A model generated the notes under the pieces. It searched no databases. It saw only the letters and a list, made by a program, of their open reading frames with translations, and was not told where the DNA came from. A program made the position numbers and the translations under genes. DNA of 64,000 nucleotides from Pseudomonas sp. S06B 330. Its GTDB lineage: Bacteria; Pseudomonadota; Gammaproteobacteria; Pseudomonadales; Pseudomonadaceae. The stretch spans positions 4,398,501 through 4,462,500 of the forward strand of contig NZ_CP088149.1 in the NCBI RefSeq assembly GCF_002845275.2. The letters are read 5' to 3'. Positions 39,131-46,354 of the stretch are shown piece by piece. Within the stretch, counting starts at the first letter, position 1. Every line of letters begins with the position of its first letter.

Positions 39131-39158
39131 TATGGCGGAGAGATAGGGATTTGAACCC
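39131..39158. repeat. attL: duplicated 3' end of tRNA-Ser
   Basis: A 28-base exact copy of 46263-46290. It covers the 3' part of tRNA-Ser(CGA) including CCA and the T-arm, and the match ends where the real gene continues. It is the left boundary of the integrated element. Confidence 0.9.
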
Positions 39159-39795: not shown

Positions 39796-40374
39796 TTATT
39801 TAATTCCTTTTAGTATAGAGATAATTATTGCGGAAAGCACTTCGACGGCCTCGTGAGCGCCAAACCCTTCAGCCATCAAGGTCCTAGCAACTTCTTCGAT
39901 TGCTCCGTAAATCGCGATTACATTTAAACGATTTTTTACTTCTGACCCAGATAGAAAACTCCCAAAAACCTCTAAATATGCCTCAACAAAGAAATCTCGT
40001 ATACGAAACCGAATATCTTGATGATCTGGATATGCCAGCAGTGCAGACACAACCGATTCGTACTGGGGGCCGCAAAGACTGACGCACGCCATGTACGAAT
40101 CAGCCACCGCATAAGCTGCACATTCCAGAGTTCGTTTGCCAGAAACCATAGTAGCTTGTGTTGCGACGATGACCTGCTCGTCGTAACGCCTGTAGAGCTG
40201 TACAAGCAGTCCCTCTCGCGATGAAAAGTGGTCGTAGGTCAATGCCTTTGTTACCCCCGCTTTTTCCGCAAGAGTAATCAGCGTCAATGCGTCTGTACCT
40301 TCTGTCCTGACAATTTCTTCAGCGGTTGATAGAAGTTGTTCTCGCCTGTCATCTTTCGATAAACGCTTAGCCAT
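39796..40374 (-). CDS. TetR-family regulator
   Basis: A 192-residue TetR-type repressor. The N-terminal helix-turn-helix is EEIVRTEGTDALTLITLAEK, then AGVTKALTYDHFSSREGLL. The ligand domain is unlike any I can name. It lies 38 bases downstream of the flavoprotein gene on the same strand, so the two probably form one transcript that represses itself through the iterated operator at 41853. Confidence 0.85.
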   Translation of the reverse strand: MAKRLSKDDRREQLLSTAEEIVRTEGTDALTLITLAEKAGVTKALTYDHFSSREGLLVQLYRRYDEQVIVATQATMVSGKRTLECAAYAVADSYMACVSLCGPQYESVVSALLAYPDHQDIRFRIRDFFVEAYLEVFGSFLSGSEVKNRLNVIAIYGAIEEVARTLMAEGFGAHEAVEVLSAIIISILKGIK

Positions 40375-40412
40375 ACCCTCCCCTTTTTTAATCCCGAACG
40401 GCCATGAAATGT

Positions 40413-41774
40413 TCAGACATTATTGTAATGTCCATAAGCATCCAAACTCATATACAGCAAAATTTCGCTATACCCTGGGTACGGATGAATAACTTCCTGT
40501 AGCTTCTGGAAAGGGATGCGCTGTTGCTTCATGACCTGCAGTTCGCCCAGCAGTTCACAGGCACGCTCGCCCAGAATACTGGCGCCCAAAATCTCCCCCT
40601 TTGCATCGCATATAACCTTAGCCATCCCAACGGTTTTCTGGTCAACTACTGCGCGATCAAGCTCCGAATACTGTGTGACGAATACCGTTATGTTATCTCC
40701 ATACATGAGTCGCGCGTCCGCCTCCATTAAGCCGCAATGCGCCAATTCAGGCTCGGTAAACGTACACCAAGCCACCCCACCAAGATCAATAGGTTTTTTT
40801 TTGCCGCTTCCAAAGAGGTTACGGATCAGGCCGCGTGCTTGGTAGCCAGCTGTATGCGAAAAAAGATATGGGCCGACCACATCACCAACTGCGTAAGTCC
40901 GTTGCGCCGTTGTTTCGCAGAATTCATTGACCTTGATTCCCTTGCCATCGTAATCAACACCTATCACATTCAAATTGATCGTAGCAGTGTTAGGTTTTCT
41001 GCCCAAAGCGAGCAGGAGAGCCTCTCCGCGAATTTCATCCGTTTGCTCCCCATGCGTCACAGTCAATATGACTTCAGACCCATGCTGCTGAACGTGCTCT
41101 ACCGCACAATTTGTATAGACTTCTACGCCTTCCTCTGTTAGCAACTGCTGCACCGCCGCAGCAAACTCGTGCTCCTCGCGAGGGAGTACTGATGCGGCGC
41201 GATCCACAAGCTTGACCTTGACGCCTAGGCGCTGCATTGCTTGGGATAGCTCGACCCCGATCGCACCGGCTCCTAGGATAATCAAACTTTTCGGCAGCGA
41301 TTCAAGCTGAAAGACGTTCTCATTAGTGAGATACGAAACAGTATCTAGACCACATATATCGGGCACGATAGGGGATGAACCTGTGGCGATCACAATGTGC
41401 TCAGCATGCACAGTCTGCCCATCTACATCTAGCGTGTGAAGACCGGTGAATTGTGCAGTCCCACACAAGTATTCGATACCGGCACTTTCCAGCAACGGAA
41501 CGGTTTCCGCTTGATGGGCTTGTTCGATGAGCGCTCTTACCTTGCCCATGATTGCAGCGCTATCCACGCTGACGTGACCGAACCGCTGTGCCACCTTCAC
41601 ATCTTTAGCAATCTGGATGAGCGCCTTGCTGGGTATGCACCCAGCCCATGTGCACTCTCCGCCAGGATTGTGCTTTTCAATGAGGATGACACGCTTGCCT
41701 ACGGCGGCAGCGCTCAGGGCCGCGTTCAGCCCACCGGCTCCGGCACCGATGATCGCCAAATCGTACTTTTGCAT
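40413..41774 (-). CDS. Flavoprotein disulfide reductase
   Basis: A 453-residue FAD/NAD(P)-binding class I disulfide oxidoreductase. The FAD motif is AIIGAGAGGLNAALSAAA; the redox-active pair is in GGECTWAGCIPSKAL (Cys41 and Cys46). The second Rossmann motif is LIILGAGAIGVELSQAM, and the dimer domain is C-terminal. The His that acts as acid/base in lipoamide dehydrogenase is replaced by Tyr (IHPYPGYSE, about 432), as in mercuric-reductase-like proteins, so it is not a pyruvate dehydrogenase E3. The ATG at 41774 follows AAGGAAATAACA. Confidence 0.87.
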   Translation of the reverse strand: MQKYDLAIIGAGAGGLNAALSAAAVGKRVILIEKHNPGGECTWAGCIPSKALIQIAKDVKVAQRFGHVSVDSAAIMGKVRALIEQAHQAETVPLLESAGIEYLCGTAQFTGLHTLDVDGQTVHAEHIVIATGSSPIVPDICGLDTVSYLTNENVFQLESLPKSLIILGAGAIGVELSQAMQRLGVKVKLVDRAASVLPREEHEFAAAVQQLLTEEGVEVYTNCAVEHVQQHGSEVILTVTHGEQTDEIRGEALLLALGRKPNTATINLNVIGVDYDGKGIKVNEFCETTAQRTYAVGDVVGPYLFSHTAGYQARGLIRNLFGSGKKKPIDLGGVAWCTFTEPELAHCGLMEADARLMYGDNITVFVTQYSELDRAVVDQKTVGMAKVICDAKGEILGASILGERACELLGELQVMKQQRIPFQKLQEVIHPYPGYSEILLYMSLDAYGHYNNV

Positions 41775-41852
41775 TGTTATTTCCTTCTGTAGAGCGAGTG
41801 TGGAGGTTGTTCTTGCCTTGTCGAGGACGAGCATGAAGAAGGAGCTTCGCAA

Positions 41853-42239: not shown

Positions 42240-42755
42240 TCAGCGTGTGATTGCTCGCACGTAGGCCTGACAGGCCTTTAGGGCAATCAATCCTTGGTCG
42301 CCATGGTCGGTGATGCTGATAATTCGTCGAGCATGCGCTGGGTCAAGTTGGGCTCGTACGGCACCATGAACCACGCCGCCGCTGCCGGTGGTGGCTGGCA
42401 GCCCACTGCCACTACACGTGGCGGTACTGTCGAGTAGGACTGACAGCCGGAGATCAGCAGTAGCAAGGCGGTCACGCAAGCGGGCTTGAGTCTGTTGGGC
42501 ATCGCGTAATTCCTGATAGTGGGTCTGATCATTCGCCTGCAGGCGATCCTCCAGCGCTCGGCGCTGGGTCTGCTCGCTCTCCTGCCAATCGATCACCGCC
42601 GTGGCGGCAAGCTCTCGCTCCGTCTGGTAGGCGCTGGACTGGTCGGCGAGTTCCTTTTGGTAGTGGTTGGCCTGCCATGCCCAGGCGCCTCGGGCGCCGA
42701 CGTATACACCGAGCAGCAGTGCAACGACCGCCAACCGCCAGCCTTGAGCGCTCAC
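42240..42755 (-). CDS. Phage i-spanin Rz
   Basis: A 171-residue inner-membrane spanin. One N-terminal membrane anchor (LAVVALLLGVYVGARGAWAW) is followed by a long coiled-coil periplasmic part (ELADQSSAYQTERELAATAV, then LRDAQQTQARLRDRL). With Rz1 it breaches the outer membrane in phage lysis. Its ATG overlaps the GH19 stop by four bases. Rz1 is nested within it in another frame. Confidence 0.85.
   Translation of the reverse strand: MSAQGWRLAVVALLLGVYVGARGAWAWQANHYQKELADQSSAYQTERELAATAVIDWQESEQTQRRALEDRLQANDQTHYQELRDAQQTQARLRDRLATADLRLSVLLDSTATCSGSGLPATTGSGGVVHGAVRAQLDPAHARRIISITDHGDQGLIALKACQAYVRAITR
42287..42502 (-). CDS. Phage o-spanin Rz1, nested in Rz
   Basis: A 71-residue lipoprotein encoded wholly inside Rz in a different frame. 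The signal is MPNRLKPACVTALLLLISGC with lipobox ISGC; the mature part is Pro-rich (VPPRVVAVGCQPPPAAAAW), as in Rz1 proteins. The nested arrangement is classical for phage lysis cassettes. Confidence 0.8.
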   Translation of the reverse strand: MPNRLKPACVTALLLLISGCQSYSTVPPRVVAVGCQPPPAAAAWFMVPYEPNLTQRMLDELSASPTMATKD

Positions 42756-43219
42756 TGCAGCACCTCAAGCGCTAGTTTATAAAGCGCCTCGCGATCCTCC
42801 AGGCCATTGGTACCGCCATTGATACGTTTGGTGATGGTGAGGAAGTCGCCCTTATCGGCCAGGGTGTTCAGACCGGCGCGATGCCAGAACCAACCCGCCG
42901 ACATCGAGGCATACACCGGCTGCTCCAGCAGTTCAGGGGTGGCAAGCAATCGGCTGTCGCCGAACAAAGCCTCACTGCAGGCCTCATAGTTAGCCCGCCC
43001 GGTTACTTGAATCAGCCCCCGACCGCGATACTTTTGCCCGTCGCCATCAGCCTCGGGGGTGTTGCCCAGGCGCTGGGCAAGTTTGCCGGTGTCGTACTTG
43101 GCCAGGTAGGCATCCCCACCCAGCTCGCGGACATAACGGAACTGGCCGGACTCATGACCGATCTGGGCGATGAAAGCAGCCATGCGCAGACGGGTGGGCG
43201 TTGAAACGGCTTTTACCAT
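42752..43219 (-). CDS. GH19 endolysin, N-terminus truncated
   Basis: A chitinase class I (GH19) fold lysin that cuts peptidoglycan. The catalytic region is AAFIAQIGHESGQF with Glu, then KYRGRGLIQVTGRANYE and a C-terminal SAGWFWHRAGLNTLAD. From the ATG at 43219 it has 155 residues, while intact relatives are near 180-210; the usual first helices are absent and no good ribosome site precedes the start. It is probably cut at its 5' end by the deletion that brought in the primase remnant, but the catalytic core is complete. Confidence 0.78.
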   Translation of the reverse strand: MVKAVSTPTRLRMAAFIAQIGHESGQFRYVRELGGDAYLAKYDTGKLAQRLGNTPEADGDGQKYRGRGLIQVTGRANYEACSEALFGDSRLLATPELLEQPVYASMSAGWFWHRAGLNTLADKGDFLTITKRINGGTNGLEDREALYKLALEVLQ

Positions 43220-43790
43220 CGAGCAGCGCCTGCAGGCCGGTACGGGTTCCGTCGGCCAAGACGCCGCCGATGATGGCCGAGGTTTGCTCGGCAGCGTCCT
43301 CAAGCTTGGCCACGCCGCAGGCAACAATCACCGCCTTACCCTCTACCAAGGCAAACCGCTGAAAGATCCGCTCTGCCGTCCAGCCACTCCCCCCGCCCCC
43401 CTCTGGAGCAGGAGCCCCGCCAGCATCAGCGGGCTCTGCCAGGGATGGGGTGTGGGGAAGGTCAACACATTGGTTTGGTACCACCAGTTGCGCCACAGCC
43501 TCAAGCTGCCCACGCACCACATCAAGACCTTGCTCGATGTGCAAATCATTCCAATCCCTGGACATCAAGCAGCCTCCCCAAAATTCGGAAACGCGGCAAT
43601 ACCGCCGACTTCGAGAGCGGCGGCTTCAGCCTTGGTGCGCCCCGGGTTACCAGGTGCGCTCGGGTCATCATCACCCGCTACCACGATCGGTACGCCCGGG
43701 TACGCGGCACGCATTGCGTTTGTCACCTTGACCAGGTTGCCCGAGTCGACTGCCATAGCCACCGGCCAACCAGTGGCCAGCCGAGAAAAC
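43220..43790 (-). pseudogene. Phage Toprim primase remnant, frameshifted
   Basis: The frame ending at 43565 contains a clear Toprim segment: PIVVAGDDDPSAPGNPGRTK with the DxD-type acidic cluster, ending AAFPNFGEAA. The reading then continues in another frame from 43566 as SRDWNDLHIEQGLDVVRGQL, exactly the following primase helix; the switch occurs at the TGATG overlap. Downstream the homology fades before the GH19 core. Both helicase and N-terminal zinc parts are gone. It is a deletion and frameshift relic of a phage replication gene. Confidence 0.7.
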
Positions 43791-43798
43791 TGCAACTC

Positions 43799-43987
43799 TT
43801 GATTACCCCTTCTACATGGATACGTAAAGAGCTGCTTTTCCCTGTATTTGGACTGAGCACCGAGGCAGTACGAAAATATCGAGACCGTGGTATCTGGCTG
43901 GAGGAAAAGCAATGGCGTGTCGATCCAGCCAACGTCATTGTTTACAACCGGGTTGAGATTGAAAGATGGATGGCGGGTCATCCATGA
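43799..43987 (+). CDS. Excisionase-like protein
   Basis: A 62-residue protein, with a TTG start inferred. STWIRKELLFPVFGLSTEAV, then YRDRGIWLEEKQWRVDPANV and IERWMAGHP, looks like the winged-helix excisionases found next to Pseudomonas phage integrases. Its stop overlaps the integrase start (ATGA), so the pair are coupled. The start codon is uncertain because no ATG fits before the conserved part. Confidence 0.65.
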   Translation: MITPSTWIRKELLFPVFGLSTEAVRKYRDRGIWLEEKQWRVDPANVIVYNRVEIERWMAGHP

Positions 43988-45246
43988 CAGCGAAGCTGCC
44001 ACCAGGTGTCGATGCGCTGCCCCCGGGCGTCGACATCAACGGCAACCAACTACGGGTCGCCTTCATGTACGAAGGCCAACGGCGGCGAGAGCCCCTGCGC
44101 AATGTCGCCAAGATAAACAAAGCGGCAATCGCATATGCGGATAACAAGCGCAGGACAATTCTTGCCGAAATCCGGGAGGGCCGCTTTGATTATGCGGCCC
44201 ACTTCCCCGACTCAAGCTGGCTCAAGGCACGCATTGAAGAACAGGTACAACCTGAGAAACGCACAGTTGCAGAAGGCATAAAACGGTGGCTGGATGTTCA
44301 AAAAGTCAGACGTGCCAACAGCACATTCATTAACTATAAAAGCAAGTCAAAGCATGTAATAAAAAAATTTGGCGACCGTACCATATCAAGCATTTCAAAG
44401 AGCGACATTGAATTATTCCAAGCAGAACTACTGACTTCAGGGCTGAGCCCCAAAACGGTTAATGACATCTTCACTATCGTGCGCGGGGTATGGGCGGACG
44501 CATTCAGCGACGAGATCATAAAATCCGATCCTATGGCGCGTATCGAGAACATTCAGTCTGATGCCGACGTTGAGTTTGCCGATCCATTCACCCGCAGCGA
44601 AATAGATCGTGTTGCAGAGGCAGACCCTGAGCGCACGCCAGACAGTCGGATGATCGTCTTCAACTGCTGGGCCGGTCTGTCTCTGTCCGAGCTGATCGCG
44701 ACGGCAGTCGAGGATGTCGACCTGGTGGCCGGCACCATCACCATCCGCCGAGCTCTGGTCACTGGAGAGTTCAAGGTACCTAAGGAGCGCGCACGAATCC
44801 GCACTGTAGAGCTGATTACACCGGCCCTAGAACTGATGACCGCCATCGTGGGCGAAGCGGCATTGACTGAGCCGACGCACATCACTGTCGTCCAGCGGGA
44901 CAACATCACCAAGAAGCATGAGCGCGTGCGCTTCCTGTTCCGCAGCTCATCAAGCGGCCTGCTGTGGAACGGTAAGACCGTCAGCAACTGGTTCACCGCT
45001 CACCTTGAAAAAGCAGGCATCCGTCATCGGGGAGCAAACCAGGCACGCCACACATTCGCGAGTCAGGCACTGTCGAGCTATGTACCAATTGAGTGGGTAG
45101 CCCGCCAACTGGGACATAGCGACACAACAATGGTGCGCAAACACTATGGCAGGTGGGTCTCAAAAGACACCAAGAGTATGGCGGAGATTGTTTCAAAGAT
45201 GATGGGATTCGGGGGAGGACTGAATCCCGAGTTAAAAGAGAACTAA
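43984..45246 (+). CDS. Tyrosine integrase
   Basis: A 420-residue site-specific recombinase. The N-terminal part (LPPGVDINGNQLRVAFMYEG) fits a DUF3596-type arm-binding domain, then a SAM-like core-binding domain (about 92-190), then the catalytic domain. His378 and nucleophile Tyr388 are seen in LGHSDTTMVRKHYGRW, and Arg355 in QARHTFAS. The first catalytic Arg, expected in a GLRxSE motif, is Ser233 (GLSLSE), and the box II His is Asn352. It is close to the tRNA end, as expected for the element's integrase. Confidence 0.9.
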   Translation: MTAKLPPGVDALPPGVDINGNQLRVAFMYEGQRRREPLRNVAKINKAAIAYADNKRRTILAEIREGRFDYAAHFPDSSWLKARIEEQVQPEKRTVAEGIKRWLDVQKVRRANSTFINYKSKSKHVIKKFGDRTISSISKSDIELFQAELLTSGLSPKTVNDIFTIVRGVWADAFSDEIIKSDPMARIENIQSDADVEFADPFTRSEIDRVAEADPERTPDSRMIVFNCWAGLSLSELIATAVEDVDLVAGTITIRRALVTGEFKVPKERARIRTVELITPALELMTAIVGEAALTEPTHITVVQRDNITKKHERVRFLFRSSSSGLLWNGKTVSNWFTAHLEKAGIRHRGANQARHTFASQALSSYVPIEWVARQLGHSDTTMVRKHYGRWVSKDTKSMAEIVSKMMGFGGGLNPELKEN

Positions 45247-45280
45247 CACCGACCTGCCCGTAACATGCCCCAGAAACGAC

Positions 45281-45305
45281 GAAGCCCCCGGACTCCGGGG
45301 GCTTC
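45281..45305. terminator. Terminator between integrase and HslV-like gene
   Basis: Perfect 11-bp arms GAAGCCCCCGG (45281-45291) and CCGGGGGCTTC (45295-45305), loop ACT. It serves the convergent integrase and HslV-like genes. It has no long T-run. Confidence 0.75.
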
Positions 45306-45326
45306 GGGCGCTACGCTGAATAAACC

Positions 45327-46052
45327 TCAGCGCTGCATAATACGACCGAGAGCACTTCTCAGTCGCTCCTTGTCAGCGGCAGTCGGCTGCATGTACTGAG
45401 CGTCGCAAGGCGCGCTTAGCGCTACGGCGCCCTGAGCAACCTGGTCCACGACGTTTTTCACGCGATCATCGTTGACCGCCGCTTCTCCGATCGACACTGG
45501 ATTCTGCCCGCTTGTCAAGTACATTACCATTCCCCTCTCCATGAAGGCTACGTTCAGGCCTTTCAGGCCAACGTCTTGAGTAAGATTGCCCGTCTTTGTA
45601 GCCAGTTCAAAAAATTTTGTTTCGCCGCCGCTGTATGGGTCCATCAGCTTAGCTGTGTCCACCGACTTTACAGCGCAACTGTTACGAATCCAGCAACCTG
45701 CTGCGTGTCTCGCGCCCGAACCAGCAAAGCTAGCGACCATTGCGCCAGTTGCGTCGGGGTATTGGATATCCTGTCCGTATTCCAATATCACGCTGCCATC
45801 AGACTTGTCAACCATCAGCATTGCGATACCGGACAAGCCTGGATCATCCTTGATGCTGTCGTCGAAAAGGAACTCTTTCCAAGCTTGAATGACCTGAGAG
45901 TCGCCAGCAAAAAGGAAAACGGCGTGCTCGGTGTCAACAATCTTCTCAAAGCCGCTGTCATCGACGTAAAACACAGCATAGTCGGTATTGAAAGACCAGC
46001 GAGAATCCGTACCAGCCTTCAGCGCGCCCTTATCGTAGACATTCGTTGTCAT
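45327..46052 (-). CDS. HslV/proteasome-like Ntn-hydrolase
   Basis: A 241-residue protein I read as a remote relative of 20S/HslV peptidase subunits. It begins MTTNVYD; Met removal would expose Thr as nucleophile. Asp16 in TDSRWS matches Asp17 of HslV, Lys37 in FEKIVDTEHAVFLFAGD matches Lys33, and the GSG at 111-113 plus the following Ala-rich helix match the GSGG segment. The tail of about 90 residues is extra. No HslU-like ATPase is near. It lies between integrase and attR, a usual cargo place. Function unknown; fold from motifs only. Confidence 0.6.
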   Translation of the reverse strand: MTTNVYDKGALKAGTDSRWSFNTDYAVFYVDDSGFEKIVDTEHAVFLFAGDSQVIQAWKEFLFDDSIKDDPGLSGIAMLMVDKSDGSVILEYGQDIQYPDATGAMVASFAGSGARHAAGCWIRNSCAVKSVDTAKLMDPYSGGETKFFELATKTGNLTQDVGLKGLNVAFMERGMVMYLTSGQNPVSIGEAAVNDDRVKNVVDQVAQGAVALSAPCDAQYMQPTAADKERLRSALGRIMQR

Positions 46053-46175
46053 CGGAGTTCCGTTTCCCGAAAAAATTCGCGAAATTCTACGTCATTCCAT
46101 AACGATATCAAGCGCTATTTTCCACCCCAATCAGATGGTCTGAGGCGACCTAACGCGGCCTATTAGTCCGGTTAA

Positions 46176-46215: not shown

Positions 46216-46249
46216 AAGCCCCCGAGAACGTCAACGTTTTCGGGGGCTT
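46216..46249. terminator. Element-borne terminator beside tRNA-Ser
   Basis: Arms AAGCCCCCGAGAACG (46216-46230) and CGTTTTCGGGGGCTT (46235-46249) with one mismatch and a 4-base loop. It sits just past the tRNA 3' end and now replaces the original terminator at 39091. Confidence 0.75.
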
Positions 46250-46262
46250 CGTCTATTTCGCA

Positions 46263-46290
46263 TATGGCGGAGAGATAGGGATTTGAACCC
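46263..46290. repeat. attR: 3' end of tRNA-Ser
   Basis: The 28-base repeat shared with 39131-39158, here within the intact tRNA gene. Integration restores the gene, so the tRNA stays functional. Confidence 0.9.
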
Positions 46291-46354
46291 TAGGTACTGT
46301 TGCCAGTACAACGGATTTCGAATCCGTCCCGTTCGGCCACTCCGGCATCTCTCC
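46265..46354 (-). tRNA. tRNA-Ser (CGA)
   Basis: A 90-base serine tRNA on the minus strand. The acceptor stem GGAGAGA pairs with TCTCTCC, the anticodon loop reads TTCGAAA (anticodon CGA, codon UCG), there is a long variable arm as expected for Ser, and CCA is encoded. It follows purC on the same strand. It is the target of the element at 39131-46290. Confidence 0.95.

Follow-up and report, generated by a model that had tools for sequence, protein, structure and literature searches.

A proteasome-like gene fitting the RPC family at the tRNA end of a Pseudomonas prophage remnant: a candidate single-gene phage-defence hydrolase

Twenty-two new prokaryotic proteasome-like families were described from sequence by Fuchs, Alva and Lupas (2021; PMC8665760), whose passages on them give neither functions nor telling gene contexts and report no co-occurring AAA+ partners. 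One family, PPH, is phage-borne and about 140 residues long; another, RPC, is a relative of PPH that has no helix H2, ends in a C-terminal extension for which no structure is known, and is placed in Proteobacteria only. The position between gpA and gpQ of P2, which holds old and tin, is known as an anti-phage hotspot (Rousset, 2022; PMC9122126). Here we describe a gene at positions 45327 to 46052 (minus strand) of a 64,000-nucleotide stretch of Pseudomonas sp. S06B 330 (contig NZ_CP088149.1, positions 4,398,501 to 4,462,500; hereafter the window), which lies between the integrase of a prophage remnant and tRNA-Ser. With about even confidence, and judging from sequence, we take it to be one-gene cargo of a prophage end that may encode a PPH-related N-terminal-threonine hydrolase, fitting the description of RPC and likely to block competing phages. 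An earlier annotation of the same DNA (the sequence-only reading) knew of no described system of this kind. The protein family had in fact been published in 2021 (PMC8665760). On function the statement holds as far as open-licence PubMed Central goes: among the papers listed there, none was a functional study of PPH or RPC or tied either family to defence or to a defence slot. A Gifsy defence protein (PMC12724215) was set aside, its heading stating that an ATPase domain is present.

The likeness to RPC extends to the PPH-related proteasome-like core, the extension without known structure, the missing H2 and the proteobacterial host. The difference is one of setting, RPC being placed in Proteobacteria rather than in phages, with no telling context in the passages concerned (PMC8665760), whereas here the gene is prophage cargo in a slot used by defence genes. 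PPH shares the MTT start and the catalytic set D-S-R, K, GSG and D..TGG, but has no C-terminal extension. Relative to the beta subunit of the 20S proteasome the fold and catalytic residues are alike, but the window protein has no propeptide, one helix fewer and an extension of 83 residues. HslV (ClpQ) is of the same fold class and likewise has no alpha subunits; however, the window protein gives no HslV family match, and hslU is paired with the host hslV elsewhere and not beside this gene. Finally, the P2-like gpA-gpQ and prophage hotspots have a counterpart in one homolog locus (L037), between a gpA-like and a portal gene, and in the analogous variable slot of the window, although the passages describing those hotspots in PMC9122126 hold no proteasome-like gene. 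The gene and its protein comprise the following features.

45327..46052, minus strand: RPC-like proteasome-homolog gene, 241 residues (open reading frame; 125 homologs at E ≤ 1e-3; PHROG 1040)
45579..46052, minus strand: proteasome-beta-like (PPH-like) catalytic domain, residues 1-158 (structure matches; hhalign to PPH)
45330..45578, minus strand: C-terminal extension (residues 159-241), largely helical and without a PDB match (structure models; low ratio of nonsynonymous to synonymous substitution, dN/dS)
46047..46049, minus strand: Thr2 codon, predicted N-terminal nucleophile once Met is removed (homolog alignment; structural alignment)
46005..46007, minus strand: Asp16 codon, equivalent of beta Asp17 (homolog alignment; alignments via PPH)
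45942..45944, minus strand: Lys37 codon, equivalent of beta Lys33 (homolog alignment; alignments via PPH)
45714..45722, minus strand: Gly-Ser-Gly 111-113, region of beta Ser129 (alignments)
45624..45641, minus strand: Asp138 ... Ser141-Gly-Gly, equivalents of beta Asp166/Ser169 (alignments)

The proteasome-like fold is predicted with near certainty from the structural model, which has the beta-type sandwich of proteasome-like N-terminal-nucleophile (Ntn) hydrolases and whose structure matches cover residues 2-158. The profile of PPH was matched by hhalign (probability 97.6, E 3.9e-12), and PHROG returned phrog_1040, named 'peptidase HslV family', at 2.1e-11. Between strands 44-51 and 76-82 the model has a single helix (52-63) where beta subunits have two, and by the topology text of PMC8665760, as far as it goes, the missing one is H2 of the first helix pair. 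Together with the profile relation to PPH and an extension without a match of known structure, this makes the protein fit the description of RPC, a label that rests on that description and not on direct comparison with the published RPC sequences (WP_140207863, cluster map); at 241 residues and with an extension it falls outside the PPH size class of about 140. Modelled alone, residues 159-241 found no PDB match, a weak test given the moderate model (predicted local distance difference test 80.9, predicted template-modelling score 0.53). A Pfam match to Y01A (E 0.22) was dismissed as noise, Pfam giving nothing else usable, and a PDB search by single sequence returned chance matches only.

Where the sequence-only reading had likened the protein to HslV in particular, we reject that identity. 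No NCBIfam model matched the window protein, the HslV model included, and in a scan of the whole genome that model matched only the true HslV of the host (283 bits); nor did the single host HslV sequence, a weak test, match the window protein by profile. The sequence tie runs to 20S beta by way of phage PPH rather than to HslV. The broader claim, an Ntn hydrolase of proteasome-like type with a full catalytic set, was borne out by the homolog alignment, the predicted model and the structural alignment.

The open reading frame is real: its ATG is the earliest ATG, GTG or TTG downstream of a stop on the minus strand, and on the plus strand the translated frame of the same interval is interrupted by a stop. 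All the residues previously named are in place, namely T2, D16 (in TDSRWS), K37, GSG at 111-113, D138 and SGG at 141-143. Conservation was counted over 120 listed of the 125 homologs (E ≤ 1e-3). T2 and T3 are kept in 117/120, the other three being gapped there; D16 is present in 119 (one gap) and K37 in all 120. A49 and G50, the latter the equivalent of the Gly47 oxyanion hole, are likewise invariant (both 120/120), as are G111 and G113 around a position 112 occupied by S (69), T (50) or N (1). D138 is found in 120/120, position 141 is S in 90 and T in 30, and G142 and G143 are kept in 120 and 118, respectively; pairwise alignments of L033 and L035-L038 lack the GG that follows residue 141. 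Judged at the level of sequence, the residue pattern in this alignment goes beyond chance. The spacing differs from that proposed: with the mature Thr counted as the first residue, D is number 15 and K number 36, against 17 and 33 in HslV. When aligned by way of PPH, D16 and K37 fall on D17 and K33 of beta-5 (numbering counted from the alignment). In the structural alignment the second residue of the model coincides with the first mature residue of 20S beta, from which one may infer that the catalytic residues lie close together.

The gene is under selection. For the whole protein dN/dS is 0.08-0.12 against four relatives (81-85% identical) and 0.05-0.12 across all ten pairs; for the C-terminal extension alone it is 0.02-0.14, likewise low, with synonymous sites near saturation in some pairs in both cases. 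The protein is very probably an active N-terminal-threonine hydrolase. Methionine aminopeptidase would remove Met1 and free Thr2 without any propeptide; the nucleophile site would consist of Thr2, Asp16 and Lys37, with Gly50 providing the oxyanion hole and Ser112, Asp138 and Ser141 in support. The protein would be expressed in the lysogen from its own promoter and, having no dedicated unfoldase, would cleave one particular stretch of protein that is exposed or disordered; choice of the target or of a partner subunit would probably fall to the C-terminal extension. The benefit would most likely lie in blocking or aborting infection by competing phages.

The setting of the gene is given by these features.

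43966..45246, plus strand: tyrosine integrase, convergent with the proteasome-homolog gene (phrog_1, 2e-52)
46265..46354, minus strand: tRNA-Ser(cga), attachment site
46263..46290, plus strand: 28-bp attachment (att) repeat copy at the 3' end of the tRNA (direct repeat)
39131..39158, plus strand: second copy of the 28-bp att repeat, bounding the element at its far end (direct repeat)
42752..43327, minus strand: endolysin gene of the prophage remnant (phrog_181, 2e-63)
42240..42755, minus strand: Rz-like spanin gene of the prophage remnant (phrog_2466, 1e-55)
46084..46111, minus strand: sigma-70-like promoter candidate, TTGATA-16-TAGAAT, 31 bp upstream of the ATG of the gene (consensus scan only)
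45280..45306, minus strand: terminator-like hairpin between the convergent integrase and proteasome-homolog genes (motif scan)
46216..46249, plus strand: terminator-like hairpin between the proteasome-homolog gene and the tRNA (motif scan)

The 28-bp direct repeat bounds an element of 7.16 kb ending in tRNA-Ser, with an integrase, an excisionase-like open reading frame, endolysin, spanin and a primase-like fragment. The proteasome-homolog gene is the sole open reading frame of at least 70 codons between integrase and tRNA, as expected from the earlier description of it as cargo beside the attachment site, and we saw no alpha-subunit or unfoldase gene within the element. Promoter-like sites in the scanned stretch number 3 against 0.6 expected by the consensus scan.

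This slot was read from integrase to tRNA-Ser in prophages with related integrases, namely the 20 best other integrase matches, all 19 loci of a second set and the window, 40 in total, and called filled when it held an open reading frame of at least 70 codons. Twenty-five slots reach tRNA-Ser and were scored, 15 reaching none; six of the 25 hold nothing, spanning about 110-135 bp at most, and the other 19 carry genes of varied kinds. Nothing encoded in the other slots is similar to the window gene (best E 0.36). Cargo from 20 loci, 26 proteins, was scanned, with L132 and L135 left out by script and spurious-looking frames and near-duplicates by eye. Six or seven of the 26, in six loci, match PADLOC models at 1e-10 or better, the count depending on M03B being the assumed partner frame of M03A. 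They are bSEFIR (L109, L110), PDC-M03 (L111), a type IV restriction-like gene (L112), PDC-S60 (L124) and NsnA/PD-T4-2_A (L130); SEFIR was placed by its own match count, and M03A, NsnA, PD-T4-2_A, S60 and type IV by further scans and coordinates. PDC-M03A (13 genomes or records searched) and PDC-S60 (18) were matched in the slot only. The slot thus holds defence-type cargo in some sister prophages. Across L098-L136 it is a highly variable tRNA-Ser cargo slot of Pseudomonas-type prophages, and its many fillings without a PADLOC match are candidate new systems; several of these, judged by eye, presumably resemble HNH, ABC-ATPase, DUF3800 and YfbU genes.

Homologs elsewhere were taken at 32 distinct loci (33 less L031, whose sequence equals L012), among them L013, L014, L034 and L041, whose genes are incomplete, broken or unresolved, and some loci that a contig end truncates; loci with short PPH-like or partial matches only do not belong to the set. 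As the sequence-only reading had anticipated, homologs recur beside integrases: a convergent tyrosine integrase comes next downstream in 9/32 loci, plus the window. These ten cases amount to about six lineages by similarity, because L016/L018 and L035/L036/L038 are close relatives; L015, whose same-strand integrase lies at a distance of 4.6 kb, was not counted. A tRNA-Ser lies upstream of the homolog in 2/35 loci scanned, some of them duplicates (L006, on the same contig as L018, and L027). The homolog of L037 has one small open reading frame on each side, beyond which come a gpA-like replication gene (phrog_91) in one direction and a portal gene (phrog_68) in the other. This is the gpA-gpQ position of P2 that the hotspot passages of PMC9122126 describe; both the L037 homolog and the window gene lie in defence-cargo slots. 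L023 has a superinfection-exclusion gene upstream, one small frame intervening. Upstream of the L010 homolog are ribonucleotide reductase genes, a helix-turn-helix (HTH) gene and a metalloprotease-like gene, while a NACHT gene and a transposase fragment lie on its downstream side. The metalloprotease-like and NACHT genes recur in L011 at 91% identity. Pfam NACHT is matched by the NACHT protein of L010, but no PADLOC model matched that protein or its L011 relative.

Since the active-site residues are intact and some sister prophages carry anti-phage genes in this slot, the protein may be a protein-cutting defence, and we put the chance of a phage-defence role at about one half. A stronger form of the proposal, advanced tentatively and at somewhat less than an even chance, is that a beta-like protein alone, with neither alpha subunits nor an AAA+ unfoldase, acts as a single-gene anti-phage or superinfection-exclusion protease, exchanged as cargo of prophages and islands, and would be the first immune effector of the proteasome family in bacteria. 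Several observations weigh against the proposal. No PADLOC model matched the window protein itself. Cargo unlike any known defence is also common in the slot, 19 or 20 of the 26 proteins having no match, and only half of the six PADLOC-positive loci (L112, L124, L130) reach tRNA-Ser, L109-L111 ending first. The counts are raw, without a full background rate, and because the same models matched elsewhere in the genomes (type IV outside the slot in 5/8, NsnA and PD-T4-2_A in 1/8 each) some slot matches represent widespread families. Other homologs adjoin lysis, tail, packaging, repressor or unlabelled genes, and that of L020 lies near an O-antigen acetylase. The element itself looks like a decayed prophage remnant, and the terminator-like hairpins around the gene are no commoner than chance, two being found against 1.4 expected. 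On the side of the fold, Foldseek template-modelling scores are low (query-normalised 0.29-0.45 among the 50 PDB matches listed), the RPC profile alone reaches 20S beta at just E 0.011, and the failed match to the one host HslV sequence counts here too. Were the proposal correct, a family published in 2021 without a function would gain, through its place in prophage cargo slots with defence genes, a concrete and cheaply testable role; a proteasome-type threonine protease would be added to bacterial immunity, in the form of a compact N-terminal-threonine hydrolase working without an ATPase.

Phage cargo positions also serve anti-defence genes, and the protease might instead destroy a host defence protein or the regulator of a rival element so that the prophage can establish. 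Its chemistry would suit either use and homologs stand beside phage genes in varied places, while the library used for scanning the slot neighbours covered defence genes alone and not anti-defence cargo. The candidate promoter from the consensus scan and the far prophage end nevertheless fit expression in the lysogen, and we consider counter-defence unlikely.

Quite unlikely, too, is a role in host fitness that has nothing to do with phages, for instance the clearing of damaged or disordered proteins. For some homologs an ATPase-free function, in the manner of an uncapped 20S particle, has been raised in PMC8665760, and the element also holds TetR-like and oxidoreductase-like genes (identified by eye). 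Some slot neighbours are nevertheless defence-like, and the long form is rare. It occurs in 6/398 genomes of the genus, the window's included, where another 12 matches are to shorter or partial forms. In the class-wide set (369 genomes, one further match partial) and the phylum-wide set (398, two further partial) the genome of the window alone has it.

Control of its own prophage, by cutting a repressor or another lysogeny protein and so setting induction, is distinctly unlikely. The gene does adjoin an integrase, L026 lies beside an S24 repressor and L010 beside HTH and metalloprotease-like genes. Against this, the homologs show no link to one repressor type, occurring in P2-like, lysis-adjacent and island contexts, and sister prophages whose slot is empty manage without the gene.

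It is highly improbable that the protein is an alternative peptidase for the HslU unfoldase. The host has both hslU and hslV, as had been foreseen, with hslU adjoining hslV and being the only full-length hslU match, distant from the window gene. The results on HslV given above speak against such a partnership, as do the single helix where beta subunits have two and the statement in PMC8665760 that the new families lack co-occurring AAA+ partners. The earlier suggestion that a host ATPase is used finds no support, the evidence pointing neither way and hslVU lying elsewhere. A sequence-specific ligase or transpeptidase in place of a protease is very improbable as well. Connectase demonstrates that ligation is within reach of this fold (PMC8665760), but two helices are inserted between its strands 3 and 4, whereas our model has no helix before residue 52.

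INPHARED phages gave no match to the window protein at 1e-5 and none to a distant homolog at 1e-2; the 73 records reached when E was allowed up to 10 are far from significant, the best listed standing at E about 1. Plasmids gave none at 1e-3. Because the INPHARED searches found nothing significant, phage isolates are absent from the sources in which we know the family, namely prophages, IMG/VR contigs, genomes and metagenome proteins. In the sources PPH is often called 'proteasome subunit beta', and the long form 'hypothetical protein' wherever a name is given.

Some further observations concern the neighbouring genes. Within the att-bounded element, 39796-41852 reads by eye as a TetR-like regulator and an FAD/NAD(P) oxidoreductase-like gene; PHROG matches were uninformative for these, and such genes are unusual in a prophage remnant. 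The open reading frame at 43152-43568 opens with the primase-like fragment, which suggests that an internal deletion shrank the prophage. A cassette of HTH gene (L010), metalloprotease-like, RPC-like and NACHT genes is common to two same-genus genomes (L010:1697-11759, and L011), and an integrase profile found none within 8 kb of that in L010. The homolog of Pasteurella bettyae (L014:7986-9895) is split over two frames, with a gene for an IS1595-type transposase next to it. In L045, L046 and L048 (about 885-2560) a short PPH gene overlaps a conserved open reading frame of 207-213 residues with an HELYH motif, which by eye resembles a metallopeptidase.
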